Below, one piece after another: positions 5,306 to 38,598 of a stretch of 64,000 nucleotides of DNA. Position 1 is the stretch's first letter; each line of letters begins with the position of its first letter. Under the pieces are notes generated by a model that was not told the DNA's origin, did no database searches, and was given only the letters and a program-made list of their open reading frames with translations. The stretch spans positions 124,001 to 188,000 of the forward strand of contig JAURZE010000024.1 of assembly GCA_030653545.1 (NCBI GenBank), read 5' to 3'. This stretch comes from Nitrospira sp. (lineage in GTDB: Bacteria; Nitrospirota; Nitrospiria; Nitrospirales; Nitrospiraceae). Position numbers and translations under genes: made by a program.

Positions 5306-5485
5306 ATGGTTACCACGCGAATGTCGAAACCAGACACCTGCCACGGCAATGAAACCCGCTGCGAGTGCGGGCAATTGATTGCCAAAGTACGCGGACAGGG
5401 GATCGAGCTGAAATGCAAACGTTGCAAACGCATCGTCGTCATCCCCTTCTCATCCATCGAAGGATGGAGCGCCGTCGCATCATGA
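5306..5485 (+). CDS. Com-like zinc-finger microprotein (copy 1)
   Basis: This 59-residue protein has a Cys cluster C-x-C-x15-C-x2-C (Cys19, 21, 37, 40) and the core GIELKCKRCKR followed by IPFS. This resembles the phage Mu Com family, a small zinc-binding RNA-binding translational activator. AAGGA precedes the ATG by about 10 bases. It is the first gene after the Fur-box promoter and 134 bases ahead of the outer-membrane barrel gene. Two paralogues with identical Cys spacing lie at 10000 and 14864. Function in this host is unknown. Confidence 0.7.
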   Translation: MVTTRMSKPDTCHGNETRCECGQLIAKVRGQGIELKCKRCKRIVVIPFSSIEGWSAVAS

Positions 5486-5619
5486 GTCGATTTATGAAAG
5501 GAGTCTTTCTCAAAACGACAACACTATTCATTCGAGGTTCCATTTTGTTCGCAGCCACCAGACCAGAGACCACCGAGTCCCGAGTCAGACCACAACCCAA
5601 CTCACCGTGGAGGATACCG

Positions 5620-7095
5620 ATGAAGATGCGGTCAATCCTCGGGGCTCTCGTCATCGCCAGTTTGTCGGCTATGCCGGCCTTGGCCGTCGATATGACCCCG
5701 GAGGACATCAAGAAGTTAGTCGATGATGCTGTGAACAAGAAGATGCAAGAGCACGAACGGCACGAAAGTTCGGCCGAACGGAGCATGGAGAAGAAGGACG
5801 GCCAGCCCGGCGCAGTTCAATACCCTGTTGCAACCGGCCCAATGATCGACATTCGAGTCGGACGCAAGGGCGAAGAAAACGTTCCTCTCGGGTTCGGATC
5901 GACCGGGTCAGGAAAACTGATCTATGCGAAGCCGTTCTTGAGCGCACCCAAGGCCACGGTCGGCGGCTATGTCGATGTGATGTACAACAACCTCTCGCGT
6001 CAGAGCCTGGATAATCCCAGCCGTAACAGCTTCGGTCAGCAGCGGATGGTGCCGTTTATTTATGCAGACATCACCGACCACATCAAGTTCGCGACAGAAA
6101 TCGAGATCGAGCGCGGCGGCATTAATGCCCCGCAAACTGGTGCTGGAAACACGTTTGGAGACGGCTCGATGCAGATCGAGTTCGCACAACTCGATTACTT
6201 GATCCATGAGGCCATCAACCTCCGTGCTGGTATCCTGTTGATGCCAGTCGGTAAGTTCAACCTCCTACACGACTCCCCCCTGAACGACCTGGTGGATCGC
6301 CCGATGGTCTCCCGGATTATCATTCCTAGCACCTGGTTTGAAGCCGGTGCCGGTATTTACGGGACTCTATACCCCTCCTCACTGTCGAAGATCGACTACG
6401 AACTCTATGCGGTCAACGGCATGAGCCAGACTGCCGGCGGCATTACCGACCTAGGCGTGCGAAACGCACGAGGCAGCGTCTCCCGGGATCGGGATGACAA
6501 CAAAGCCATCGTCGGCCGTGTGGCCTTCAGCCCGATGCTCGGCATCGAAGTCGCCGGATCCGGCTACCATGGCTCCTACAAGCCGTCAGCCGGAACGGTC
6601 GACTCGGGCACGATCGACATTGTTGCCTTGGACTGGACCCTGCAACGAGGCCCGTTCGAAGTGATCGGAGAATCGGCCTGGACAAGAATCAGCAACAATA
6701 ATGCGACCGGAGTGGCCAGCAGAGGCATCGGACCGGCCGGCATGCAAGGCTACTACATTCAAGGCAACTATCACTTCATGCCGGACTTCCTGAAGACCTG
6801 GGCACCCAGCCACTTCACGGATGCGTCGACATTTACCGCCGTCGTCCGGTGGGAGCGTGTCAACACCGACACGGACGGCCGCACCAAGCAGAATGCGCTG
6901 GGTGGCCAGCGGGAGCTTGAGCGATTGACCCTCGGCCTCAACTTCCGGCCGATCGAAGATACCGTCATCAAGTTCGACTGGCAATTCAACACCCAGAAAG
7001 ATGCGAAGGGTCTCGTCCCCGCAGGCGATCTAGGGACATCGGGCAGCCCGATGAACGGCAACGGCTTCCTGATCCAGGCAGCCACGTACTTCTAA
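5620..7095 (+). CDS. Porin-like outer-membrane beta-barrel protein
   Basis: The 491-residue protein has a signal peptide (about 1-22, ending ALA), a charged helical or coiled-coil N-terminal segment (about 25-65, rich in Lys/Glu/His) and a long beta-rich barrel ending in the aromatic motif ATYF typical for BAM-dependent insertion. It resembles OprO/P-type or DUF3138-like porins in general, but no specificity is visible. The reading frame is open further upstream, but the ATG at 5620 is chosen because GTGGAGG precedes it and a signal peptide follows directly. It sits in the Fur-controlled operon before the flavoprotein genes, so it may pass iron ligands or electrons; that is inference. Confidence 0.75.
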   Translation: MKMRSILGALVIASLSAMPALAVDMTPEDIKKLVDDAVNKKMQEHERHESSAERSMEKKDGQPGAVQYPVATGPMIDIRVGRKGEENVPLGFGSTGSGKLIYAKPFLSAPKATVGGYVDVMYNNLSRQSLDNPSRNSFGQQRMVPFIYADITDHIKFATEIEIERGGINAPQTGAGNTFGDGSMQIEFAQLDYLIHEAINLRAGILLMPVGKFNLLHDSPLNDLVDRPMVSRIIIPSTWFEAGAGIYGTLYPSSLSKIDYELYAVNGMSQTAGGITDLGVRNARGSVSRDRDDNKAIVGRVAFSPMLGIEVAGSGYHGSYKPSAGTVDSGTIDIVALDWTLQRGPFEVIGESAWTRISNNNATGVASRGIGPAGMQGYYIQGNYHFMPDFLKTWAPSHFTDASTFTAVVRWERVNTDTDGRTKQNALGGQRELERLTLGLNFRPIEDTVIKFDWQFNTQKDAKGLVPAGDLGTSGSPMNGNGFLIQAATYF

Positions 7096-7100
7096 AAGGA

Positions 7101-7142
7101 TCTCGAGGGGCCGCCCCAACATGGGACGGTCCCTCATCGAGA
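7101..7142 (+). other. Intercistronic stem-loop
   Basis: TCTCGAGGG and its near complement ending TCGAGA enclose an inner CCGCCCC/GGGACGG stem. No U tract follows, so it is more likely an mRNA-stabilising or attenuating hairpin than a terminator. Confidence 0.4.
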
Positions 7143-7155
7143 AACCAGACCGGAC

Positions 7156-7614
7156 ATGATGATGCAACGACTGTTCACACTACTCCTCCTGCCGACGTTA
7201 TTAACGGCGTGCGCCTCCATGAGCGGCATGCAACAGCGCTTTGCGGTGTGCAGCTATGACCATGCCTGGGAGGCCGCGCTTGAGGCCGTGAAGGATCGGG
7301 CGATCGTCACGAACGATAAAGCGGCCGGCATGATCGTCACCGGCTGGCTCGAAATTCCCATGCCCGGACGGACCTTTGGTGCCCTCCAACGTGAAGTGGG
7401 GGATAGCAAAGATCGGTCCCGCATCACCCTCATCGTCAAGCGACTTGACGATGTCACGAAGATCAGCTTTGCCGAAGAACGGCAGCGATGGGCCTTCCGC
7501 GGCGGCTCGCGCCTCTTCGGCTGGGCCTCCACCGATCCCTCGGCGGAGGTCATGACGGATGTACAAAGCCGCCTGGACACGAAACTAAAGGAGCATGGAT
7601 GTTCTCTCAACTGA
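7156..7614 (+). CDS. Putative lipoprotein of the iron/flavin operon
   Basis: This 152-residue protein begins with a short hydrophobic leader and the lipobox LTAC (Cys19), so it should be lipid-anchored. The mature part contains a YDHAWEAALEAVKD helix and a compact beta-rich region; nothing catalytic is evident. Its 3' end overlaps the FMN-binding gene by 16 bases, implying translational coupling and a shared role. Unknown function; it could be a small partner of the flavoprotein. Confidence 0.7.
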   Translation: MMMQRLFTLLLLPTLLTACASMSGMQQRFAVCSYDHAWEAALEAVKDRAIVTNDKAAGMIVTGWLEIPMPGRTFGALQREVGDSKDRSRITLIVKRLDDVTKISFAEERQRWAFRGGSRLFGWASTDPSAEVMTDVQSRLDTKLKEHGCSLN

Positions 7615-8285
7615 GTGCGTTCCGCACCGTCACCGTCACTGTGTTGCTCATGGCCTCGGCACTCCCCGTTCTGGCCACCGAAAAAGTCTGGGATGCCGAA
7701 CTTCGCCGGTATCTGAAGGACGACGACTTCAAGTATGAGGAATTTATGACGGAAGAGGAGGCCGTGAAAACGATCCTTCCCAAGTCGCAACGCGTACACA
7801 AGGAACTGATCCGCCTGACACCGGACAAGAAAGAGCTCATCGAGCAACGGATCGGCTGGAAATTTCCGGAAGAGTCGTTCGAGTTGTACATCGGTGAAAC
7901 CGGGGACAAGATCGACGGCTATGCCATGATCCACAACACCATCGGCAAATATAAACACATGACCTATATGGTCGGGGTCGATCCCAAGGGCACCTGCACC
8001 GACGTGGAGTTGCTGGTGTTTCGCGACGCCAAAGGGAGCGAAGTCGGAAAGAAGCGGTTCAACTCGCAATACGACGGGAGAACGGTGTCCGACCCGATCC
8101 GGATCAACAAGGACATCATCAATATCAGCGGCGCCACCATGTCCGTTCGCTCCATGAGCGCCGGCGTCAAGCGCGTGCTCGTCCTCGTAGACGAGTTTTA
8201 CTTAAAGCCGGCCGGCTTAGGGAGCGACACGGTCGCATCCCGCAGGTCTGACAAGGGCATCTTTACATCCATTTTCGGCAACTAA
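7599..8285 (+). CDS. FMN-binding domain protein, exported (ApbE substrate)
   Basis: This 228-residue exported protein has a signal peptide (about 1-26, ending VLA) and a C-terminal FMN_bind domain like RnfG/NqrC. The flavinylation motif D-xxxx-SGAT is at residues 172-180, and Thr180 is the predicted covalent FMN site. The start at 7599 is chosen over the longer open frame because AAAGGAG lies upstream and a signal peptide follows. With ApbE nearby and a His-rich membrane protein downstream, it is probably a periplasmic one/two-electron carrier. Substrate (for example Fe3+) is inferred only from the iron context. Confidence 0.85.
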   Translation: MFSQLSAFRTVTVTVLLMASALPVLATEKVWDAELRRYLKDDDFKYEEFMTEEEAVKTILPKSQRVHKELIRLTPDKKELIEQRIGWKFPEESFELYIGETGDKIDGYAMIHNTIGKYKHMTYMVGVDPKGTCTDVELLVFRDAKGSEVGKKRFNSQYDGRTVSDPIRINKDIINISGATMSVRSMSAGVKRVLVLVDEFYLKPAGLGSDTVASRRSDKGIFTSIFGN

Positions 8286-8308
8286 ACGAAGCGGACCGAG
8301 CGTCCCCT

Positions 8309-8827
8309 ATGAAAAACTTTAATCAACGATTCAAGCTCCGGGACTCCGATCGCCATATCAGACTGCTGTATACACAGTTTCTGCTCTTGATGTTGATCGG
8401 GTTTTTATTTTCGTTTTTTTGGGCTCACAGCATGACCAGCTTGTCGCCACAAGGCATTGCAGAACACTATCGGGGATCGGATGCCACCTTCGGCGAGCCG
8501 ATGTCGTTCCGCGAACTGGCGGAGGTCACGCATTTTCACCTCTTCACCATGCCGGTCGTCTTCATGATTCTCGTCCATGTGCTGTATTTGACGAGCGCCA
8601 GCCAGGCCATGAAGATTTGGATGACATGGCTCTCCTTTGCCGGCGTGGGGCTGGATTTACTGTCGCCCTGGCTGATCAGCTACGTGTCGCCCGTCTTCGT
8701 GTTGACTATGTTGACCGGCGATACGCTGATGATGGTGACGTTTTTGATCATGATGTGGATTCCCATGCACGAAATGTGGATTCTCAAGCAGCCCCTCATG
8801 GGAGGGAAACGTCCCGAGGAGACCTAG
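8309..8827 (+). CDS. Four-helix membrane protein, His-rich, electron-transfer candidate
   Basis: This 172-residue protein has predicted membrane helices at about 20-40, 75-97, 103-125 and 128-152. Histidines at 40, 53, 75, 77, 90 and 154 lie at or near helix ends, a pattern compatible with b-type heme ligation, though no known heme family is recognised. It follows the FMN_bind gene by 23 bases. A reasonable model is that it passes electrons from the quinone pool to the flavoprotein outside the membrane; this is inference. Confidence 0.65.
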   Translation: MKNFNQRFKLRDSDRHIRLLYTQFLLLMLIGFLFSFFWAHSMTSLSPQGIAEHYRGSDATFGEPMSFRELAEVTHFHLFTMPVVFMILVHVLYLTSASQAMKIWMTWLSFAGVGLDLLSPWLISYVSPVFVLTMLTGDTLMMVTFLIMMWIPMHEMWILKQPLMGGKRPEET

Positions 8828-8859
8828 CGGTAAGCAGCGCGGTCCTGACAATCTAGAAC

Positions 8860-8916
8860 GGCCAGAGGTTTTTCACCCAGAGCCCAAGATCACGAGCGTG
8901 GTCTTGGGCTTTGTGT
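8860..8916 (+). promoter_or_regulatory. Hairpin leader element E1
   Basis: GGCCAGAGG starts the element; 21 bases after its first base begins a hairpin AGCCCAAG...CTTGGGCT (13-bp stem, loop GAGC, 8881-8910) followed by TTTGTGTTT. The 51 bases 8860-8910 are identical to 15064-15114 (element E4). It sits 27 bases before the HD-GYP start and could act as an attenuator or protein-binding site. Confidence 0.6.
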
Positions 8917-8936
8917 TTAGTGAGAAAGGAGACACT

Positions 8937-9701
8937 ATGCGTATCGAGAGTCCCGACCGAATTCACCCCGGCATCCTCGCCATTCAGCGAGAGCTGGACA
9001 AAATTGACCGCCTCCGCCTGCCCATCGCATCCTGCCGGGATGTTGAACGCATCCTGATACGCCAGGTGACGAAGGAGCTTGATCGTGCACTCCCCTGGCA
9101 GGCAGGCCACGGACGGCGTACCGCAAGGATCGCCAGAGCAATCGGACGGGAGATCGATCTGCCATCGGCCGACCTGCATCACCTCACCCTGGCGGCCTAT
9201 CTGCACGACATCGGGCTTCTGATGCTGCCGCCCAGCCTCATGGACAGCGCCGCCCCCCTCGAACCGGACACCTATGTGGCCGTCCAAAATCACTGCCGAA
9301 TCGGCGCGGCGCTCTTAGAACCCTATGCGTTCCTGCAGGAAGCGGCGATTCTTGTCGCGCATCACCATGAACGCTGGGACGGCACCGGCTACCCTTACGG
9401 TATCAGAGGGCCCTTTATCCCGCTTGGCGCAAGAATTCTCTCGGTTGCCGACGCGTACGACGCCATCCGAGTTCCCGAAGCCAGCGACAAGGCCCTGCGC
9501 GACCTCATCGCCTCACGCATTCTACGCGTAGCCGCCGGCACACAATTCGATCCGACCATCGTCGCGGCGCTGACACGTTGCCTCGAGCATCGGAAGTTCG
9601 ACAATGACGGCAGCGGAGTGGGAGCCATGACATCCCACTTCACAGGCGGGGGCCCTCAGTCCTCCTGGGGCCCCCCGCCCTATTTGTCTCCGAAACGATA
9701 A
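8937..9701 (+). CDS. HD-GYP domain phosphodiesterase (copy 1), C-terminally extended
   Basis: This 254-residue protein is probably a cyclic-di-GMP phosphodiesterase. It has the HD-GYP metal ligands H58, HD at 90-91, H119, H143-H144 and the signature HHERWDGTGYP (143-153). AAAGGAG precedes the ATG. Its paralogue at 15141 ends 26 residues earlier. Here a 45-base in-frame loss between CGGAGT repeats removes the stop, so the last ~26 residues read through the terminator hairpin sequence (9645-9680). There is no receiver or sensor domain, so input is unknown. Confidence 0.87.
   Translation: MRIESPDRIHPGILAIQRELDKIDRLRLPIASCRDVERILIRQVTKELDRALPWQAGHGRRTARIARAIGREIDLPSADLHHLTLAAYLHDIGLLMLPPSLMDSAAPLEPDTYVAVQNHCRIGAALLEPYAFLQEAAILVAHHHERWDGTGYPYGIRGPFIPLGARILSVADAYDAIRVPEASDKALRDLIASRILRVAAGTQFDPTIVAALTRCLEHRKFDNDGSGVGAMTSHFTGGGPQSSWGPPPYLSPKR
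9645..9680 (+). terminator. GC-rich hairpin inside the 3' end of HD-GYP copy 1
   Basis: GGCGGGGGCCC and GGGGCCCCCCGCC form a strong stem around TCAGTCCTCCT. The same hairpin is at 15894-15929 where it lies after the stop codon. In this copy the coding frame runs across it. The U tract is weak. Confidence 0.5.
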
Positions 9702-9743
9702 GGGAGCAGCCTCAAAGAAATTTCACCTTGGGCCAAAGAAGCC

Positions 9744-9785
9744 TTGACAAAATAACATCAGCTTCTGTATTGATAATGATTATCG
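9744..9785 (+). promoter_or_regulatory. Promoter with strong Fur box (copy 2)
   Basis: TTGACA (9744-9749) and TATTGA (9768-9773, 18-base spacer) form a promoter. Overlapping the -10 is TGATAATGATTATCG (9771-9785), 14 of 15 identical to the Fur consensus. This predicts iron repression of the second TonB/receptor operon. Confidence 0.8.
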
Positions 9786-9826
9786 GTTTTATAAATGAGC
9801 TCGGCGCACCAGCGCTATCGCTTATA

Positions 9827-9888
9827 GGCCAAAGCACTTGATGCTAGAGCCCACCGTCGCTGTCCAGCGGCCGTGGGCTTTTTGTTTT
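9827..9888 (+). promoter_or_regulatory. Hairpin leader element E2
   Basis: GGCCAAAG at 9827 is followed, 21 bases on, by a hairpin AGCCCAC...GTGGGCT (14-bp stem with one mismatch, loop GTCC, 9848-9879) and a T-rich tail TTTTTGTTTT. An upstream mini-hairpin AGCA-TGCT fits between. It would be the first structure in the Fur-controlled transcript and looks terminator-competent. Confidence 0.6.
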
Positions 9889-9926
9889 CTACGCAACACC
9901 GTAAGCGAGTCCGCTCATTACATCGG

Positions 9927-9986
9927 GGCCAGAGGAACGTGATTCCGGAGCCCATGCGTAACGCAAGTTGCGTATGGGCTTTGTTG
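9927..9986 (+). promoter_or_regulatory. Hairpin leader element E3
   Basis: GGCCAGAGG at 9927 lies exactly 100 bases after E2. A mini-hairpin GGAA-TTCC follows, then, 22 bases from the start, a hairpin AGCCCATG...TATGGGCT (14-bp stem with two G-U pairs, GCAA tetraloop, 9949-9980) and TTGTTGT. It ends 14 bases before the second Com-like gene. Confidence 0.6.
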
Positions 9987-9999
9987 TAACAGGAGACCC

Positions 10000-10191
10000 A
10001 TGAAAATCCGTGAACCTCGCATGCGTGGCAGTGAGCATTCTGTCGATATTGCCACCGACATCCGTTGCGCCTGCAGCAACATGATCGGTCGGCTGACACA
10101 GCGAGGCATCGAAGTGAAATGTCGTCGTTGCAAACGAATCCATGTGATTCCACTGTCAGTCCTCGACAAGTTCCACCACGAGTCAAAGTGA
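10000..10191 (+). CDS. Com-like zinc-finger microprotein (copy 2)
   Basis: This 63-residue protein carries the same C-x-C-x15-C-x2-C cluster with core GIEVKCRRCKR and IPLS. AGGAG five bases before the ATG supports the start. It is the first gene behind the Fur-box promoter and the tandem leader elements E2/E3 and precedes the exbD remnant and tonB copy 2. It is related to phage Mu Com, a small RNA-binding activator, but its role here is not known. Confidence 0.7.
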   Translation: MKIREPRMRGSEHSVDIATDIRCACSNMIGRLTQRGIEVKCRRCKRIHVIPLSVLDKFHHESK

Positions 10192-10336
10192 CTGACGGCC
10201 AAGTGCAACCAGCCGTAGCAACGAACATAGCGGGAACATTGCGTGCGGAAACAATCGCTGACGAAGAGCAACCACACTAGGTTTAGAAGCACGACTAGAA
10301 CCTGCGGCTGTAATGCTGTGAAATCGTAACCATGCG

Positions 10337-10408
10337 ATCAAGCAAGTCGTTGACGCCGTTCGAAGCCTGGCATTCGGCCAAGTCAGTCTAGAGGTAGCGA
10401 AATCATGA
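10337..10408 (+). pseudogene. exbD remnant (C-terminal 23 codons)
   Basis: Translated in this frame the segment gives VVDAVRSLAFGQVSLEVAKS plus stop, aligning with the ExbD C-terminus encoded at about 2650-2713 (VDEVRGLGFQQVSLEV). Upstream the frame is broken; a GTAACCAT match to the intact gene is the last recognisable base identity. The stop overlaps the tonB copy 2 start as ATGA, just as intact exbD overlaps tonB copy 1. This indicates that a full exbB-exbD-tonB unit was deleted down to tonB. Confidence 0.75.
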
Positions 10409-11460
10409 CCGCGCAAATCCTGGATCCGCCAGATCACATTCGCCTTCAATGGCACGGCTGGTCCTATTCGCTCATCATGCACGCAGTTATAGCTGTAGGG
10501 GCGATGGCTTTCCTTTCCTCCATTGATGCGACGCTCCCTTCCGAGCAGTTTTCCTGGAACGTGGCGATGGTTGAACCACCGAAACCCCAACCGCAATTTG
10601 AAACACTCACTGACGCCAGGTCTGCGCCCGCACCGACGCCGCCGAAACAGCAAGTCGTTAAATCCCCCCCCCCTCAGCCGACGGTTGAGCGGATCCAACC
10701 GATTCAGCAAATGGTCTCACAAAAGATCATGCAGCGGCAGATCCCCCAAACCGTCCAAACCACGAGTCCCGTCAGGACCGTGAACCAAACAGCCTCCACT
10801 ATCGTATCCCAACCAGTCCAGCACAACGCCACCAGCAAAACCATTACCTCGACCACGGAACGGGAAACGGTCTTCCACGAAGAACCGGCCGTGACCACAA
10901 TCGCAGCGCTCCAACAAATAGGGACCCCGGTCCACGCAGATGGCCTCGTCACCCACCAAACTGAAGAACCTGTCATACAGGATGGGGCCATTGAAGCCGG
11001 CAGTGAAGCGGTCGCACGGTCACAGCCAATTGTAAGCCAATCGGCAGTGGAGGCTATTGCCGAATCCCCGACAATCCGCCAGACCAGCGAGTCTGCTGCC
11101 TCGACACCGCAGGCCTCTATCGAACAACAGGTTGCGCACGTCCCTCAAGCCAGAGCACTGCCGACGACGAGAACTGATTATGGGTGGTTGATGAAGGCTT
11201 TGCTGGGGCGCATCAATGACCTCAAGAAATATCCTGTGGTCGCCCGCGTCAATCATTGGGAAGGGCTGGTGGTTCTGAAAGCTGTGATCGCAGAGGACGG
11301 CAATGTCGTGTCGATTGATATCCACGAAAGCTCAGGCCGCGTCATTCTCGACAACGATGCCATCGAAACCTTGCGCAAGGCCGCTCCAATCAAATTGGAA
11401 CATCCACTGGGAAAACCGCAAGTGGCGATTCTGATGCCGATCAGTTATTCGCTCCGCTAG
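10405..11460 (+). CDS. tonB: Energy transducer TonB (copy 2)
   Basis: This 351-residue TonB paralogue has an N-terminal anchor (about 17-36), a conserved FSWNVAMVEPP segment also seen in copy 1, a long linker rich in Pro, Gln, Thr and Ser, and a C-terminal TonB domain (about 250-350) ending PISYSLR. It starts at ATG 10405 overlapping the exbD remnant stop. With no intact local exbBD, it must borrow the ExbBD encoded at 1.9-2.7 kb or elsewhere. It probably serves the FecA-type receptor downstream in the same transcript. Confidence 0.9.
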   Translation: MTAQILDPPDHIRLQWHGWSYSLIMHAVIAVGAMAFLSSIDATLPSEQFSWNVAMVEPPKPQPQFETLTDARSAPAPTPPKQQVVKSPPPQPTVERIQPIQQMVSQKIMQRQIPQTVQTTSPVRTVNQTASTIVSQPVQHNATSKTITSTTERETVFHEEPAVTTIAALQQIGTPVHADGLVTHQTEEPVIQDGAIEAGSEAVARSQPIVSQSAVEAIAESPTIRQTSESAASTPQASIEQQVAHVPQARALPTTRTDYGWLMKALLGRINDLKKYPVVARVNHWEGLVVLKAVIAEDGNVVSIDIHESSGRVILDNDAIETLRKAAPIKLEHPLGKPQVAILMPISYSLR

Positions 11461-11476
11461 ACAAGATTGGCGAAGA

Positions 11477-11852
11477 ATGGAGAGCACTGTGAACACTTCT
11501 AACTTATACCATCCTAGAAGCCGCCAGCCTGCCGCATTTCTCGGGCTATTAACTGCCTTTGATTGGCTACCTCGTGCAGCTCAGCCCCATGAGAACATGG
11601 CGCGGAAAATTGAATTCTCGTCGCTTACCGAACAGGCAAAGGTGCAATGGGCCCGAGCCGCAACAGTTTCGCTGGCAGGAGCGATCCAAAGCGCGCTGCT
11701 CAGTCGCCAGTCAGGCGATTCAGGCAACATTTGAGTCACTCAAGGTACATCTTCTCTATGAAATCGCAATCGTGACAGAAGAAGGGAACGTTGTGGAAGC
11801 ATTCAATAATTCCCAGTCCGGAACAGTCATCGAAGCAGGAGGAAACAAGTGA
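11477..11852 (+). pseudogene. PepSY-domain periplasmic protein gene with frameshift
   Basis: Two overlapping frames together spell a PepSY domain: ATVSLAGAIQSAL in the first frame (to 11734) and LLYEIAIVTEEGNVVEAF...GTVIEAG in the second (ending 11852). A single-base shift near 11715-11735 joins them. PepSY domains are small periplasmic modules often found with iron-uptake systems. The stop overlaps the GTG start of the next gene, as expected for a once-coupled operon member. A sequencing error or programmed frameshift would be alternatives to a pseudogene. Confidence 0.5.
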
Positions 11853-12301
11853 CACACTCATTACCGACTCGAGCTCTTTGTTTATCCGTCATCACCGCAG
11901 CCTTTCTGTTCGTTCCACTGTTAACCCAGGCGTTAGCGCAACAGAAAGCTGACAAGGTCTTCTCGGCAGTCGTCACGGATGCCCAAGGGATTGACACCGA
12001 CGTAAGGAACATCCTCTTCTATTGGGAAGAGAAAGTCAGCGAGACAGCCTTCGTCCCGCATGAGCTACGGCATGTCCCTGTGAAACGAGGTACTGCGACC
12101 GTCAACGTGAAATTCGATACCATCAAGCAAATCGAGATCAAGCCAGGGGCAAATAACAGCCTGGCCAGCCTGACGATCAGCCTGGCCAATGGAAAAAGCG
12201 CCGAATTCGGACTCGCTATCGATGGGAAATTTAAGGGAGAGTCTGATTTCGGCGAAGTTGAATTACCCGCAACCGGGCTCAAGAAAATCGTATTCAAGTA
12301 A
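11849..12301 (+). CDS. Exported protein of unknown function in TonB operon
   Basis: This 150-residue protein has a signal peptide (about 1-30, ending ALA) and a mature region that looks like a small beta-sandwich with alternating hydrophobic strands (TATVNVKFDTIKQIEI, ASLTISLANGKSAEF). It starts at GTG overlapping the PepSY stop by GTGA. No catalytic motif is seen. Position between tonB and the receptor suggests a periplasmic accessory of iron-chelate import. Confidence 0.65.
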   Translation: MTHSLPTRALCLSVITAAFLFVPLLTQALAQQKADKVFSAVVTDAQGIDTDVRNILFYWEEKVSETAFVPHELRHVPVKRGTATVNVKFDTIKQIEIKPGANNSLASLTISLANGKSAEFGLAIDGKFKGESDFGEVELPATGLKKIVFK

Positions 12302-12428
12302 TGGCGTACGCGAATAAAGATAGTTACCGGCCGTTTCCACTCAGAGGCCCACAGGCTCAGCTCTTCTGCTGCCTTCGCGCCCGATCTTTTAACTCTTCAC
12401 TCACATAATTTACCCAACGGAGGCCGCA
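12302..12428 (+). other. Receptor gene leader without recognised signal
   Basis: No Fur box, promoter pair or hairpin was found in these 127 bases before the FecA-like gene. The receptor therefore probably depends on readthrough from the 9.75 kb promoter, though a cryptic promoter cannot be excluded. Confidence 0.4.
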
Positions 12429-14768
12429 ATGAGCCCTTGTTTCTTCGCATTGAAACTGAGAACGGTATTCAAAATCGACAGACTACTACTACTACTGCTC
12501 GCGCTGCTTCTCACTGGCTGGCAGCCGGCGAATGCAGAGGAAATCGTCGACGTCCCCTCGCCAGTCACTACGACGACGGCAAAAGAACTTGAAGATAAAC
12601 CGATCAAGGCTCCCTTGACCGAAGTGATCGGGACAGCAGCAGACGCCCTGGACCATATTCCCGGTTCCGGCCGCGTCGTGACGCAGGAATCGATTCAGCG
12701 CAACCAGCGGCTTACGGTCAACGAGGCACTGCGCGAAGTTCCCGGCGTCAACGTCCGCGACGAAGACGGATTTGGCCTTCGACCGAATATCGGCATTCGC
12801 GGACTTAACCCAACGAGAAGCACAAAAGTCCATATCATGGAAGACGGCGTGCCTATTATGCTGCTGCCGTACGGAGACCCGTCATCCTATTACTTTCCCC
12901 CGTTGCAGCGCTTCGACCGGATAGAAGTGTTGAAGGGCAGCGGCCAGCTGCTCTATGGTCCGCAAAGCATCGGCGGCGTCATCAACATGATCACGCGAAT
13001 GCCGCCGGCAACTCCCGAAGGGCATTTTCAGCTGATGGGAGGCAATCTCTCCTATCTCAGCTCGCATTTCGACTACGGAGGGATGTGGGGAAAGAGCGGG
13101 TATATGCTGGATGTCAATCACTATCAGGGCACCACGCCGCGTTTTTTCAATCAGAGGGCCAAAGTAGACGACATCACGTTTAAGACCGTTCAGGAGTTGA
13201 GCGACCGCACAACCATTCTGGCCAAATTCAATTACTACCGCGAAGATTCCACGATCGGTTACCAAGGATTGACCGAGAGTCAGTACGCCACCGATGCGCA
13301 TCGGAACGACTTCAACAACGACGTTATGGATTTTCGCCGGATCGGCTTCCATGTCGCGGTTAACCATATGTTCAACGCAAGCCTCACCTCGACCACCAAT
13401 TTCTTCGGCCACTATATCGATCGGGTATGGGGCCGCCAAATGATCGACTCCGACGGAGTCGCTGGCTCAGCTTGTACAGTTAGCGCCACCGGTGGCGTCG
13501 GTGGGGGCTGCCAAACAGGCAACGGCCTCGCAGCCGGAGTGACGCAAGCGATTCCAGCCAATGGCCGTTTTATCAATGATCGCAAGTACTGGGTGTACGG
13601 AGTGGAACCCCGGTTTCATCTGACCCATGGCCTGTTCGGCATTCGGTCCGAAGCCGACTTCGGCACGAGATACATGAATGAACGGTCACAGCGAACCCAG
13701 TTCCTGAATGCGCTATCCGGGGTTGGCACAACCTGCGCGAATGCCGGAGGCGGACAAACAGGATGTCTTGGAGAGAATACGACCCGTCAAACCAACGCTT
13801 TCGCCTTATTTTTTCAAAATCGTTTCTTCATAACCGATAACTTCACCATTACACCGGGCTTCCGCGTCGAGCACGTAAACTACGACCAAGTCGACAATCG
13901 GGCCAATAGCGGATCAGGAGCCTTCTCGAAGACCCATATTACCGAAGTGCTCCCTGGGATCGGCGCCACTTATACGCCAATCAAGAACTACACGTTCTTC
14001 GCGGGAGTTCATCGGGGGTTTGCGCCGCCGCAGATTTCCGACGCCATTCAGTCCAACGTCGTCGTCGACCTGGATGCCGAGTTGAGCTGGAACTACGAAA
14101 TCGGCATCCGCGGCAATCCGATTCCATGGGCTTGGTTTGAAATGACCGGCTTCCGCATGGACTTTGAAAATCAGATCGTCAATCAGTCCGTCGCCGGCGG
14201 AACCGGTGCGACCAACACGAACGCCGGGCGGACGGCCCACATGGGCGTCGAGTTCGGCACGAAGCTCGATCTGCTCGATGCTATCAAAGGGCAAGATCCC
14301 AATGAAGATATCACGATTGATATCAACTACACCTGGCTGGGCCAAGCGGAGTTCCGCGGCACCCGCAACAGCTCCATCACAGGAGCGGCGCTGCTGGCGG
14401 GCGAGGCCGCTGCCTTCAACACTAACGGGAATCGCCTTCCCTATGCTCCGAGAAATACAGTAACCGCCGGGATCGGCTATGCCAATCGCAATTGGGGATT
14501 CGATGGGCGAGTAGAGACCCAATGCATCAGCGATATGTTCGGAGATGACCGCAATACCTATATTCCAACCCCCAATGGCCAACGCGGTATCGTCAAGGGA
14601 TGGTGCGTGGTCAATGCGGCGGTCAATCAGTATGTCAAGCCGATCAAAACGACGTTCTTCCTGGTCGGTAAGAACTTGTTCGATCAGACGTTTATCGTCG
14701 ATCGGACGCGCGGTATTTATCCCGGCCTCCCCTTGCTCGTGCAGGGCGGTGCGCGCTGGACATTCTAA
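12429..14768 (+). CDS. TonB-dependent receptor, FecA (ferric citrate)-like
   Basis: This 779-residue outer-membrane receptor has a signal peptide (about 1-36, ending ANA), a possible TonB box EIVDVP (about 38-43), a plug domain (about 65-195, with PGVNVRDEDGFG, IGIRGLNPTRS, IMEDGVPI and a GPQSIGGVINMITR end) and a 22-strand-type barrel closing in RWTF. The plug closely resembles Fe(3+)-dicitrate receptors. The short N-terminus lacks the FecA signalling domain, so no FecIR-type regulation is expected. Regulation more likely comes from the upstream Fur box through the shared transcript. Confidence 0.9.
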   Translation: MSPCFFALKLRTVFKIDRLLLLLLALLLTGWQPANAEEIVDVPSPVTTTTAKELEDKPIKAPLTEVIGTAADALDHIPGSGRVVTQESIQRNQRLTVNEALREVPGVNVRDEDGFGLRPNIGIRGLNPTRSTKVHIMEDGVPIMLLPYGDPSSYYFPPLQRFDRIEVLKGSGQLLYGPQSIGGVINMITRMPPATPEGHFQLMGGNLSYLSSHFDYGGMWGKSGYMLDVNHYQGTTPRFFNQRAKVDDITFKTVQELSDRTTILAKFNYYREDSTIGYQGLTESQYATDAHRNDFNNDVMDFRRIGFHVAVNHMFNASLTSTTNFFGHYIDRVWGRQMIDSDGVAGSACTVSATGGVGGGCQTGNGLAAGVTQAIPANGRFINDRKYWVYGVEPRFHLTHGLFGIRSEADFGTRYMNERSQRTQFLNALSGVGTTCANAGGGQTGCLGENTTRQTNAFALFFQNRFFITDNFTITPGFRVEHVNYDQVDNRANSGSGAFSKTHITEVLPGIGATYTPIKNYTFFAGVHRGFAPPQISDAIQSNVVVDLDAELSWNYEIGIRGNPIPWAWFEMTGFRMDFENQIVNQSVAGGTGATNTNAGRTAHMGVEFGTKLDLLDAIKGQDPNEDITIDINYTWLGQAEFRGTRNSSITGAALLAGEAAAFNTNGNRLPYAPRNTVTAGIGYANRNWGFDGRVETQCISDMFGDDRNTYIPTPNGQRGIVKGWCVVNAAVNQYVKPIKTTFFLVGKNLFDQTFIVDRTRGIYPGLPLLVQGGARWTF

Positions 14769-14782
14769 TCATCGGCGATACG

Positions 14783-14807
14783 GGACGGGCCGCCTTGCGG
14801 CCCGTCC
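14783..14807 (+). other. Stem-loop downstream of receptor gene
   Basis: GGACGGGCCGC and GCGGCCCGTCC form a perfect 11-bp stem with loop CTT. There is no U tract, so transcription may continue into the third Com-like gene; it may protect the receptor mRNA 3' end. Confidence 0.5.
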
Positions 14808-14863
14808 GACCCGATAGAGGGACCCATGTGAATCGACAACATAATCAAGAACTCGAGGAAACT

Positions 14864-15043
14864 ATGAGCAACGGCGCCGCCGATCCATGCCACCAAGACA
14901 GCGAGTGTCGTTGCCTCTGCGGAGCGCTCATGGCGCGCCTCACACTCGAAGGAATCGAGTTGAAGTGCAAACGTTGCCGGCGACTCCTGACCATTCCTTT
15001 CTCCCGTATCAACGGGTGGGCATTGCAGCAGCATCGCAACTGA
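14864..15043 (+). CDS. Com-like zinc-finger microprotein (copy 3)
   Basis: This 59-residue protein carries C-x-C-x15-C-x2-C with core GIELKCKRCRR, IPFS and a following GW as in copy 1. Start ATG 14864 has GAGGAA upstream and gives the same length as copy 1; GTG 14828 (after GAGGG) is an alternative. It lies between the receptor gene and leader element E4. It is probably an RNA- or DNA-binding zinc knuckle by analogy to Mu Com. Confidence 0.7.
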   Translation: MSNGAADPCHQDSECRCLCGALMARLTLEGIELKCKRCRRLLTIPFSRINGWALQQHRN

Positions 15044-15063
15044 TTTCTGTCGACAGTAAAGGC

Positions 15064-15121
15064 GGCCAGAGGTTTTTCACCCAGAGCCCAAGATCACGAG
15101 CGTGGTCTTGGGCTCTGTGGT
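15064..15121 (+). promoter_or_regulatory. Hairpin leader element E4
   Basis: Bases 15064-15114 are identical to E1 (8860-8910): GGCCAGAGG, then a 13-bp hairpin AGCCCAAG...CTTGGGCT with GAGC loop. The downstream bases CTGTGGTTTTTGAG differ from E1. It sits 26 bases before the second HD-GYP start. Confidence 0.6.
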
Positions 15122-15893: not shown

Positions 15894-15929
15894 GGCGGGG
15901 GCCCTCAGTCCTCCTGGGGCCCCCCGCCC
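15894..15929 (+). terminator. GC-rich hairpin between HD-GYP copy 2 and bacterioferritin
   Basis: This is the same strong stem as at 9645-9680. It lies between two convergent genes and could terminate both. The tail CATTCTATT is only moderately T-rich. Confidence 0.55.
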
Positions 15930-35791: not shown

Positions 35792-37339
35792 TCAAATCAA
35801 GCGGACTTTCTGCTCCCCCTCCGCCTGCTTCGAGGCCATATACGCGAGTCGATTCAACGCATTGAGGTAGGCCCGGGCCGCGGCCATGATGATATCTGTA
35901 TCCGCCCCATGACCCGAGACCGTGCGGCCGTCTTCCTCCACGCGCACGGAGACTTCTCCCTGCGCATCTGTCCCGCCGGTAATGGCGTTGACGCCGAACA
36001 TCAACAGTTTACTCTTCGTCTTTGTGATGGCCGCAATCGTCCGATAGACCGCATCGACCGGCCCGTCGCCGGTGCCTGATTCCTTGATCACTTGTCCGTC
36101 AATGTTCAATTCCACCGTCGCTGTCGGTACGAGATTCGTGCCGCTTTCGACATGGAACGACTTCAACACAATCCGCTCGGTCATCTTGGCCAACTCTTCC
36201 GACACGATCACTTCTAAATCTTCTTCGAAAATTTCCTTCTTTTGATCGGCCAGCTTCTTGAAACGTTCAAAAGCATGGTTGAGCTCTTCCTCGCTGAGCT
36301 TGTACCCCAAATCATCCAATCGCTGCCGGAATGCATGACGCCCGGACAACTTGCCCATGACCATCTTGCTCTCGATCAACCCGATCGATTCCGGCCGCAT
36401 GATTTCGTAGGTCGTCTTATCCTTCAACAGCCCGTCCTGGTGAATCCCGGACGTGTGAGCGAACGCATTCGCACCGACGATGGCCTTGTTCGGCTGCACG
36501 ACCATGCCGGTAATCTTACTCACCAACCGGCTCGTCTTGGCAATCTCCTCCGTCCGGATGCCGGTATCGGCCTGATAAAAGTCCTTCCGGGTCCGGAGCC
36601 CCATGACGATTTCTTCAAGCGACGTGTTGCCGGCCCGTTCGCCGATCCCGTTGATCGTGCACTCCACTTGGCCCGCGCCATTGACGATCGCCGCTAAACT
36701 ATTCGCCACAGCGACACCCAAGTCGTTGTGGCAGTGGACTGAAATCACGGCCTGCTTGGCATTCGGCACTTTGTCGAAAATCCCTTTGATCAACGCGCCG
36801 AACTCTTGCGGCACGGCATAGCCCACCGTATCGGGAATATTGATCGTTCCCGCCCCGGCGGCAATCACCGCTTCAATGACCTCATAGACGTAGGATTGGT
36901 CCGAGCGGCTCGCATCCATGAGGGAGAACTCCACGTCCGGCATATAGCTCCGCGCGCGCTGCACCATCTCGACCGCGCGCTTCCTGGCCTCTTCCCGCGT
37001 CATCCTGAACTGATGCTTCAAATGGATGTCGGACGTCGAGAGGAACGTATGAATCCTGGCCTTCGGCGCTCCTTTGAGCGCCTCCCAGGCTCGATCGATG
37101 TCCTCCGGACGAGCCCGCGCCAGACTGCAGACCGTCGGTCCCTCAACCTCCAACGCAATCCGGCGAACCGCCTCAAAATCTCCAGGCGAACTGTAGGCAA
37201 AACCGGCTTCGATGATATCGACCCCGAGCCGCGCCAGCTGCTTCGCCACCATGACTTTCTCTTCCACATTCATGCTGGCGCCGGGCGACTGTTCGCCGTC
37301 GCGCAACGTCGTATCGAAAATGCGAATCATCCGTTCCAT
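35792..37339 (-). CDS. leuA: 2-isopropylmalate synthase
   Basis: This 515-residue enzyme condenses acetyl-CoA with 2-oxoisovalerate, the committed step of leucine synthesis. A DRE-TIM barrel opens with [31 protein letters not shown], the NGIGERAGN motif and a C-terminal LeuA allosteric domain (about 390-510) follow. A leucine T-box leader lies upstream at about 37.54-37.79 kb and a MITE-like repeat between it and the start codon. It heads the leuA-cupin-leuB-NHL-asd-DUF2905-spoIID-queA operon. Confidence 0.97.
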
Positions 37340-37540: not shown

Positions 37541-37795
37541 AAAAAGCCTTCGCCCCCCCATTACGGTCAGGGACGAAGGCTTCGCGCGCTTCGTGGTACC
37601 ACCCTGGTTCGGCAACGAATGACATATGGTCATCCATCACCCTTCATTAGCCCCTTACGGGGGCGAAGCGGAATCCATTACTCGAGGTTCACGGATTCGG
37701 CTCAGAGGCGAGTTCGGCGACACACAGACCGGCTTGCACCACCCGCCGGCTCTCTCAAATCTGTGCGGCTCGCGTACTACTCCTCGTCGTCGCCT
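37541..37795 (-). promoter_or_regulatory. Leucine T-box leader of leuA
   Basis: On the minus strand a Stem I-like segment begins right after the pssA stop. It includes GAGAGAGCC-GGTGCAAGCCGG and a specifier loop GAACTCGCC with CTC (37710-37712), a Leu codon. Further on is the T-box sequence AGGGTGGTACCACG (37592-37605), then a terminator stem GAAGCCTTCG...CGAAGGCTTTTT (37541-37583). Uncharged tRNA-Leu should switch the antiterminator on, inducing leuA and downstream genes under leucine starvation. Confidence 0.85.
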
Positions 37796-38598
37796 TACGA
37801 TTTGGGTTCTATCACAGGCTGGTCAGACTTGGAAAGAGGTTTCTTCCCAACGGCTTTCGCCATCAACCAGAACAATCGTTCGGTCGGTCCCATCAACGCA
37901 TAGCCCGAAAATACCACAAACAGCATCACCTCAGGCCAGGCCGCAATCATCATGAGCGCAAGAATGCCCCACACTAGATAGGTAATCTGCTGGCGGCCTT
38001 TGAACTTCATATCCTTGAAGCTGCGATACTTCACGGTACTAACCATGAGGAAGGAAAGAGCGAGCGTGATGACCAACACCAACACCGGCTTCACTTCCGT
38101 CCCCATCCGGACAATATGATGGTCGAGAATCACCAGCGACGCGACCACTCCGGCAGCCGCGGGAATCGCCAACCCGGTGAAGTACTTGCTGTCAGCCAGC
38201 GCGACCGTTGAATTGAAACGCGCAAGCCGGACCGCCCCCATCGCGACATAGGCGAACATCACGGCGACACCAAACATACCTTGTCCGCTCAGCGCCCAGG
38301 AGTAGATCAGGAGACCCGGGGCGACACCGAACGACACCACATCGGACAGGGAGTCATACTCCAATCCGAAATGGCTCGTGCTGTTCGTCAGTCGGGCCGA
38401 CTTTCCATCCAACACATCGAAAATCATTGCGACCAAAATGGCAATCGCTGCGGCCATATAGTTGGCATTGAAGACAGACAGGATGGCATAGACACCGCAA
38501 AACAGGTTCCCCGTCGTGAAGAGATTGGGAATCAGATGCATCGCCTGACGTTTCCGCGCTTCCTTCCCCAACGATTGTCGCAAGCCGTTTCCCTTCAT
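37795..38598 (-). CDS. pssA: CDP-diacylglycerol-serine O-phosphatidyltransferase
   Basis: This 267-residue integral membrane enzyme makes phosphatidylserine from CDP-DAG. It carries the CDP-alcohol phosphotransferase signature D-x2-DG-x2-AR in FDVLDGKSARLTNSTSHFGLEYDSLSD (broken here as FDVLDGKSAR ... GLEYDSLSDVV). Multiple helices follow. It overlaps psd by four bases, forming the PE synthesis pair. The T-box begins immediately after its stop. Confidence 0.93.
   Translation of the reverse strand: MKGNGLRQSLGKEARKRQAMHLIPNLFTTGNLFCGVYAILSVFNANYMAAAIAILVAMIFDVLDGKSARLTNSTSHFGLEYDSLSDVVSFGVAPGLLIYSWALSGQGMFGVAVMFAYVAMGAVRLARFNSTVALADSKYFTGLAIPAAAGVVASLVILDHHIVRMGTEVKPVLVLVITLALSFLMVSTVKYRSFKDMKFKGRQQITYLVWGILALMMIAAWPEVMLFVVFSGYALMGPTERLFWLMAKAVGKKPLSKSDQPVIEPKS

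Follow-up and report, generated by a model that had tools for sequence, protein, structure and literature searches.

RAT antiterminators, which are bound by proteins of the BglG/LicT type, consist of a short hairpin with internal loops that overlaps the 5′ arm of a terminator. A second point of reference is Com of phage Mu (Zn_ribbon_Com, PF10122), a small Cys4 zinc ribbon that activates the translation of mom by remodelling a hairpin in its mRNA (PMC6483171). SELEX and probing of the Com protein from H. sputorum define a target of CC(N)2-3GAG in a six-residue loop with a C-G closing pair (PMC6483171). For a third group of zinc ribbons, Cys_rich_KTR (PF14205) from Firmicutes phages and plasmids, no description of a function was found in the open-access literature searched, from which most subscription journals are missing.

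The elements described here, found in a window of 64,000 nucleotides from a Nitrospira sp. genome, share features with each of these systems. They are predicted to work similarly to a RAT, as a hairpin that overlaps a terminator and is stabilized by an RNA-binding protein. In contrast to RATs, of which they are not members, their RNA sequence differs, and a zinc ribbon, not a CAT-PRD protein, is the candidate partner; the 25 most frequent Pfam families in the proteins encoded downstream do not include a CAT-PRD domain. As in the Mu system, a small Cys4 zinc ribbon of the Com family, with RC..C and C.RC.R aligned, is encoded next to a hairpin carrying CC...GAG, most exactly in the hairpin classes B and C described below. 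Mu Com, however, controls the translation of one gene, whereas the Nitrospirota system is chromosomal and is associated with several target operons and the iron regulon, and its class A elements possess two half-sites around a stem, P1, and an attached terminator. The ends of Cys_rich_KTR genes overlap a similarly patterned element with a terminator after it, but these proteins contain two CxxC pairs in place of the CxC and CxxC of the Com-like proteins, and the phage genes behind them encode HNH nucleases and terminases, not iron proteins. Fur-box-like promoters and typical target genes are shared with Fur-regulated iron operons, to which the element is proposed to add a further layer of control, exerted on the RNA after the promoter.

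Elements and genes of the window

The features discussed are the following (R1 is the covariance model introduced below).

5306..5486, + strand: Com-like zinc-ribbon gene 1 (RCECG...KCKRC); profile match G000:C24:129306-129476, sequence and alignment with Mu Com
5561..5586, + strand: class B element GACCAGAGACC-ACC-GAGTCCCGAGTC, lying after Com-like gene 1 and before the porin start; six-base loop closed by C-G, no terminator; position conserved elsewhere
8854..8917, + strand: E1 (class A), flanked by a membrane-protein gene (8309-8827) and HD-domain gene 1; U-tract weak and interrupted; R1 68.3 bits and sequence
8937..9701, + strand: HD-domain (HD_5) gene 1, 3′ of E1; Pfam HD_5, E value 1.9e-33
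9744..9784, + strand: promoter-like TTGACA (9744-9749, −35 assigned by eye) and Fur-box-like TGTATTGATAATGATTATC (9766-9784, 15/19 to the Fur consensus), 5′ of E2 and E3
9821..9886, + strand: E2 (class A), the 5′ member of two tandem elements in a Com-like gene's leader, 3′ of the Fur-box-like promoter; R1 52.9 bits and the Fur-like box
9921..9987, + strand: E3 (class A), the 3′ member of this tandem, 12 nt 5′ of the Com-like start codon; R1 58.3 bits
10000..10191, + strand: Com-like zinc-ribbon gene 2, 3′ of E2 and E3; profile search and hhalign to phage Com
10405..11460, + strand: TonB gene downstream of the E2-E3-com unit; Pfam TonB_C, E value 3.9e-12
12429..14768, + strand: TonB-dependent receptor, nearest to FecA/siderophore receptors
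14864..15043, + strand: Com-like zinc-ribbon gene 3, directly 5′ of E4; profile search
15058..15121, + strand: E4, class A element between Com-like gene 3 and HD-domain gene 2; stem sequence that of E1; R1 66.2 bits
15141..15827, + strand: HD-domain (HD_5) gene 2, 3′ of E4, paralogue of gene 1; Pfam HD_5, E value 1.1e-29

The earlier note on this DNA had located GGCCARAG, followed by AGCCC, at 8860, 9827, 9927 and 15064 of the + strand with offsets of 21, 21, 22 and 21, and these values are exact. Dinucleotide-shuffled windows contain a mean of 0.13 matches to this pattern, and none of 100 shuffles reaches four. The long hairpins of E1 to E4 fold as claimed, with z scores of −2.7 to −5.9 against shuffles. 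A spacer hairpin, described for three copies, is present in all four once the closing G is taken from GGCCARAG. The long stems were said to differ in sequence while keeping their structure; the structure is kept, but the stems of E1 and E4 are identical, owing to a leader common to the two paralogous HD-domain genes, so that the four elements amount to three independent sequences. The U-tract of E4 is interrupted like that of E1, and E1, E3 and E4 end 12-19 nt 5′ of a start codon. The genome itself (3.9 Mb) holds no further class A copies beyond E1 to E4. Among the named records, Nitrospira defluvii NOB1 and Nitrospira sp. CR1.3 align to the window over several kilobases, which places the host in or near Nitrospira.

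A Fur-box-like sequence is visible by eye just 5′ of Com-like gene 1. Between this gene and E1, positions 5620-8827 are occupied by a conserved porin-lipoprotein-FMN_bind-membrane protein cluster, possibly a ferric-reductase-like unit, and the conserved arrangement from com through this cluster and the element to the HD gene recurs with a length of ∼3.35 kb. Near the ends of the HD genes, identical strong hairpins GGGGGCCC-TCAGTCCTCCTG-GGGCCCCC are found at 9648-9675 and 15897-15924 (+ strand), with the anti-Shine-Dalgarno-like loop CCUCC; in other Nitrospirales, hairpins that share the TCCTCCTG loop but have different stems follow class A elements (L089, L090, L093, L095, L121, L123, L125 and L134). 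Elsewhere in the window of this Nitrospirota genome, a T-box leader (RF00230, 94.7 bits) at 37566-37799 on the − strand directly precedes leuA, a 2-isopropylmalate synthase-like open reading frame at 35792-37339.

A regulatory RNA family of the Nitrospirales

The element is a previously unlisted regulatory RNA family spread across the Nitrospirales. A comparison with 4,227 covariance models of Rfam gives nothing at the gathering score, and up to an E value of 5 the element region is without a match, the sole hit being a chance snoRNA match elsewhere. No description of such an element was found in the open-access literature searched, which excludes most subscription journals. The earlier note had staked its reading of a structured cis-regulatory RNA on covariation and on further copies upstream of genes in related genomes, and both are found. 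A simple pattern search of genomes from the same genus yielded many real copies, 36 of which were aligned to build the covariance model R1. In this alignment, 94.3% of the cells are paired and 11 of 19 pairs have changed on both sides; the covariation score of 0.44 exceeds that of shuffles (0.18) and of slid controls (maximum 0.11). The inner pairs of P1, which played no part in the selection of elements, vary between UA, AU and CG.

Over the collected loci, R1 gives 91 matches of at least 47 bits, with the next at 33.7 bits, leaving a clear gap. Matches occur in 98 of 296 genomes of the phylum, nearly all Nitrospirales included, with 1 to 7 copies per genome and mostly 5′ of iron genes; the homologues from Nitrospirota number ∼130. 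Beyond the class, R1 gives weak matches that were left out of the membership. G063, G113 and G258, from far outside the Nitrospirales, show weak matches with no Com-like gene detected and were not counted. Transposon or REP-like repeats were rejected as an origin, given the single orientation 5′ of genes, the few copies and the absence of a visible transposase, and so was a leader peptide, as the reading frames crossing the element did not look conserved by eye within Nitrospira.

The conserved sequence of class A consists of two blocks of 8-9 nt with an unpaired core of ∼10 bases. Block 1 is (GA)GGCCARAG, more exactly G-G-C-C-A/C-R-A/C-G, and block 2, CCRGAGCCC, is contained in the 5′ arm of the terminator, 7-12 nt away in nearly all copies. 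The blocks are joined by P1, a hairpin of 3-5 bp with compensatory changes; a length of 3 bp or more is seen in 113 of 129 copies, compared to ∼22% of shuffles. The stem that follows is an intrinsic terminator, with 6.9-7.5 T within the 9 nt after it. Two further pairings were set aside: an antiterminator formed by GGCC and the GGCU in the 3′ arm of the terminator, which looked compensatory at L094:6345, disagrees with other variants and fits less well than pairing of block 1 with block 2, and a hairpin P0 upstream of GGCC is clear in ExbB-type leaders and not conserved in sequence or position elsewhere.

The RNA is predicted to fold into two mutually exclusive structures, the arrangement typical of the RAT type. 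When the RNA ends before the 3′ arm of the terminator, 124 of 130 sequences are predicted to pair the blocks around P1, and the outer block-block pairs persist in 55% of predicted folds when the middle is shuffled. At full length, the terminator is predicted in 127 of 130, hiding the second block, one of the two half-sites, in 117. The median predicted energies of −6.5 kcal/mol for the antiterminator form versus −30.7 kcal/mol for the terminator form imply that the former needs a stabilizer. Since the outer pairs are nearly invariant within class A, the block-block pairing is almost without covariation there; it is supported by the changes to GAC:GUC in class B and to GGAC:GUCC in class C.

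The genes 3′ of the elements encode HD_5 proteins, ECF sigma factor, FecR and TonB receptor operons and ExbB/ExbD/TonB, besides small zinc-ribbon proteins, AraC regulators and, as judged by eye, Bfd-like and NRPS-like proteins. Some Bfd-like genes behind class A elements (L036, L039, L042, L046 and L047) are followed by a run of tiny zinc-ribbon or Cys-rich open reading frames (CQKCGG...CVNCGW; MKLVLCGCGKLHLTCG). Fur-box-like sites of at least 14/19 occur within ∼150 nt upstream of 29% of the elements, compared to 1% of random segments. A rough classification of 129 copies places 35 behind a Fur-like promoter, at a median of ∼100 nt upstream of the gene, 60 between cistrons, 8 in both groups and 26 in neither.

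Com-like and Cys_rich_KTR zinc ribbons beside the RNA

The three Com-like proteins of the window share RC.C...C.RC.R with Mu Com. Pfam and NCBIfam alone give these proteins no name, single-sequence Pfam matches being weak, and the assignment therefore needs a profile comparison, in which the Com-like profile matches phage Com with an hhalign probability of 96.8% and an E value of 2.9e-10. Among the 296 genomes of the phylum, Com-like genes are present in 105 and the element in 98; both occur in 92, the element only in 6, Com only in 13 and neither in 185, counts that are uncorrected for phylogeny. Within the order, the corresponding numbers are 85, 3, 4 and 7 (Fisher p 2e-6, likewise uncorrected). 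Counting same-strand elements only, 28 of 150 Com-like genes have one at a distance of up to 400 nt and 109 at up to 6 kb. The earlier note had named iron, heme, c-di-GMP and the Com-like proteins as candidate partners of the RNA; the Com-like proteins have the strongest support, whereas the three ligands find none here.

In genomes with Com but without class A, related hairpins are often found behind com. Class B, GACCAGAGACC-NNN-GAGTCCCGAGTC, is a conserved feature of the region that separates com from the porin gene; it has a GAC/GUC stem, a C-G closing pair and the six-base loop C-NNN-GA. Class C, GGACC-N-GAGTCC, lies just 5′ of the ribosome-binding site of the next gene. Both classes lack a terminator and are close upstream of that site. 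A hairpin of class A, B or C follows within 300 nt of 48 of 66 Com-like genes, with backgrounds of 3.3, 0.6 and 0.08%, respectively. The SELEX motif CC(N)2-3GAG with its C-G closing pair is present in class B and in several class C hairpins. E1 to E4, in class A, contain CC(N)1GAG twice around the variable stem P1, a pair of half-sites that resembles the bipartite SELEX motif but is not identical to it. On its own, GACCNNNGAGTC is no rarity in the window, with 2 occurrences for an expectation of 0.6, and its weight as evidence comes from its position and conservation. Both blocks and P1 (GGCCAGAGGACATGAGTCCAGAGCCCG) also occur with no terminator hairpin behind them, ∼40 nt after Com-like genes of the third type (L038, L040, L045 and L081).

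The association extends beyond the phylum. A scan of GTDB contigs by DNA pattern only (GGCCAGAG, 8-14 nt, CAGAGCCCA) gave 118 loci, most of them rejected as chance matches without a hairpin. Hairpin-bearing loci outside the Nitrospirota are L222, L175, L176 and L201, assigned to Clostridia or to bacteria, and L180 (Chloroflexota); all five carry a Cys4 zinc-ribbon gene that overlaps the element or ends just 5′ of it. The zinc ribbons of the first four are Cys_rich_KTR proteins (E values of 1e-8 to 1e-10), with HNH endonuclease and terminase genes behind them. In the clostridial phage versions (L222 and L175), the 3′ strand of P1 itself lies within the terminator arm; sharing this sequence, P1 and the terminator are mutually exclusive by construction. 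The KTR genes of Lactiplantibacillus plantarum and Monoglobus end in frames (KEPDAKTQSR and KEPDAQTQSR) that consist of element-like sequence, followed by a terminator.

L295:436-624: KTR element-like tail, L. plantarum pMD5057
L296:586-774: KTR element-like tail, Monoglobus

As such a tail is encoded by element-like sequence, the protein conservation of the family may partly be a conservation of RNA. The matches listed in the KTR search include Staphylococcus and Vibrio plasmids. It is conceivable, at somewhat less than even odds, that Com, the Com-like proteins and Cys_rich_KTR belong to a single widespread family of antiterminators that bind RNA, and that every one of them has a bipartite antiterminator-terminator RNA next to it. 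In Firmicutes phages and plasmids, this RNA would be hidden in the 3′ end of the regulator gene, the conserved KTR tail being partly an RNA signal, and would gate late or mobile genes; the Nitrospirota would have taken the system over for their iron-starvation regulon.

Proposed attenuation and alternative readings

The position of the element beside Com-like genes suggests that the protein decides whether transcription continues into the iron genes. The preferred reading, with a probability of roughly 0.6, is that of a protein-responsive transcription attenuator, in which a Com-like protein binds the RNA and antiterminates iron-starvation operons; the earlier note's protein-binding attenuator would thus be right in kind. 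Computation shows the RNA family with P1, the terminator and their covariation, the gene context and the link to Com/KTR genes; the binding of the Com-like protein, read-through as its direction and the iron logic are inferred. The nascent leader would first form block 1 (GGCCARAG), P1 and block 2 (CCRGAGCCC). The blocks would pair by GGC:GCC, with purine-rich internal loops flanking P1, giving a RAT-like antiterminator, and the Com-like Cys4 zinc ribbon encoded in the same regulon would bind and stabilize this form. Without the protein, block 2 would serve as 5′ arm of the terminator, which is much more stable, and transcription would stop 5′ of the gene. When iron is scarce, the promoters would be freed from Fur, the Com-like protein would build up and read-through into the iron-acquisition operons would follow. 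E2 and E3, lying 5′ of com gene 2, would provide autoregulation, and E1 and E4 would set the read-through into the HD genes.

The main rival is that the Com-like protein binds the element but promotes termination as negative feedback, or alters translation or mRNA stability as Mu Com does for mom. This is unlikely for the system as a whole, although translational action of the Mu type may hold for classes B and C, which lack a terminator and are near the ribosome-binding site of the next gene; since Mu Com acts on translation, by hairpin remodelling, the mechanism may be translational in part. E1, E3 and E4, with their ends 12-19 nt before a start codon, would also suit such control. Class A, however, keeps a strong terminator whose 5′ arm holds the block that would have to be single-stranded for Com, and about one-third of the elements are a long way 5′ of the gene, a position less natural for the control of translation.

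A small riboswitch or metal-sensing RNA for iron, heme or another ligand, with the proximity of Com reflecting a shared iron regulon only, is improbable. Nearly all Nitrospira copies are in iron-related operons, as this reading expects, but an aptamer would usually be larger than the conserved unpaired core, KTR/Com and phage HNH-terminase genes of Clostridia, which have no iron link, are accompanied by the same element, and the Com motif is matched by the hairpins behind Com genes; a metabolite riboswitch is not supported. About equally improbable are RyhB-like small RNAs, Fur-driven short transcripts that end at the hairpin and act in trans via GGCCARAG. Many copies do consist of a Fur-like promoter, ∼100 nt and then a terminator, but the intercistronic copies, about half of the total (60 of 129), have no obvious promoter of their own, the downstream gene has the same orientation as the element and the GGCCARAG block pairs internally. 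Least probable of all is that the hairpins are ordinary intrinsic terminators of upstream genes with an incidental block before them: the hairpin with its U-tract and the copies closely following a gene fit this, but R1 gives high scores to true elements only, the conservation of block 1 and P1 spans the order and extends to other phyla, several copies in divergent intergenic regions (e.g., L039:15803 and L044:4835) have no upstream gene to terminate and thus mark the elements as leaders and not 3′ ends, and the distance of E1, E3 and E4 from the start codon is too short for an intervening promoter.

For the attenuator reading, the target RNA, the candidate protein and the predicted switch are all defined. 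If it is true, an RNA layer would stand behind Fur in the iron control of Nitrospira, which are central nitrite oxidizers. A function would be offered for the widespread and uncharacterized Cys_rich_KTR proteins, and Com, known from one phage gene, would extend to a family of regulators acting at the level of transcription.
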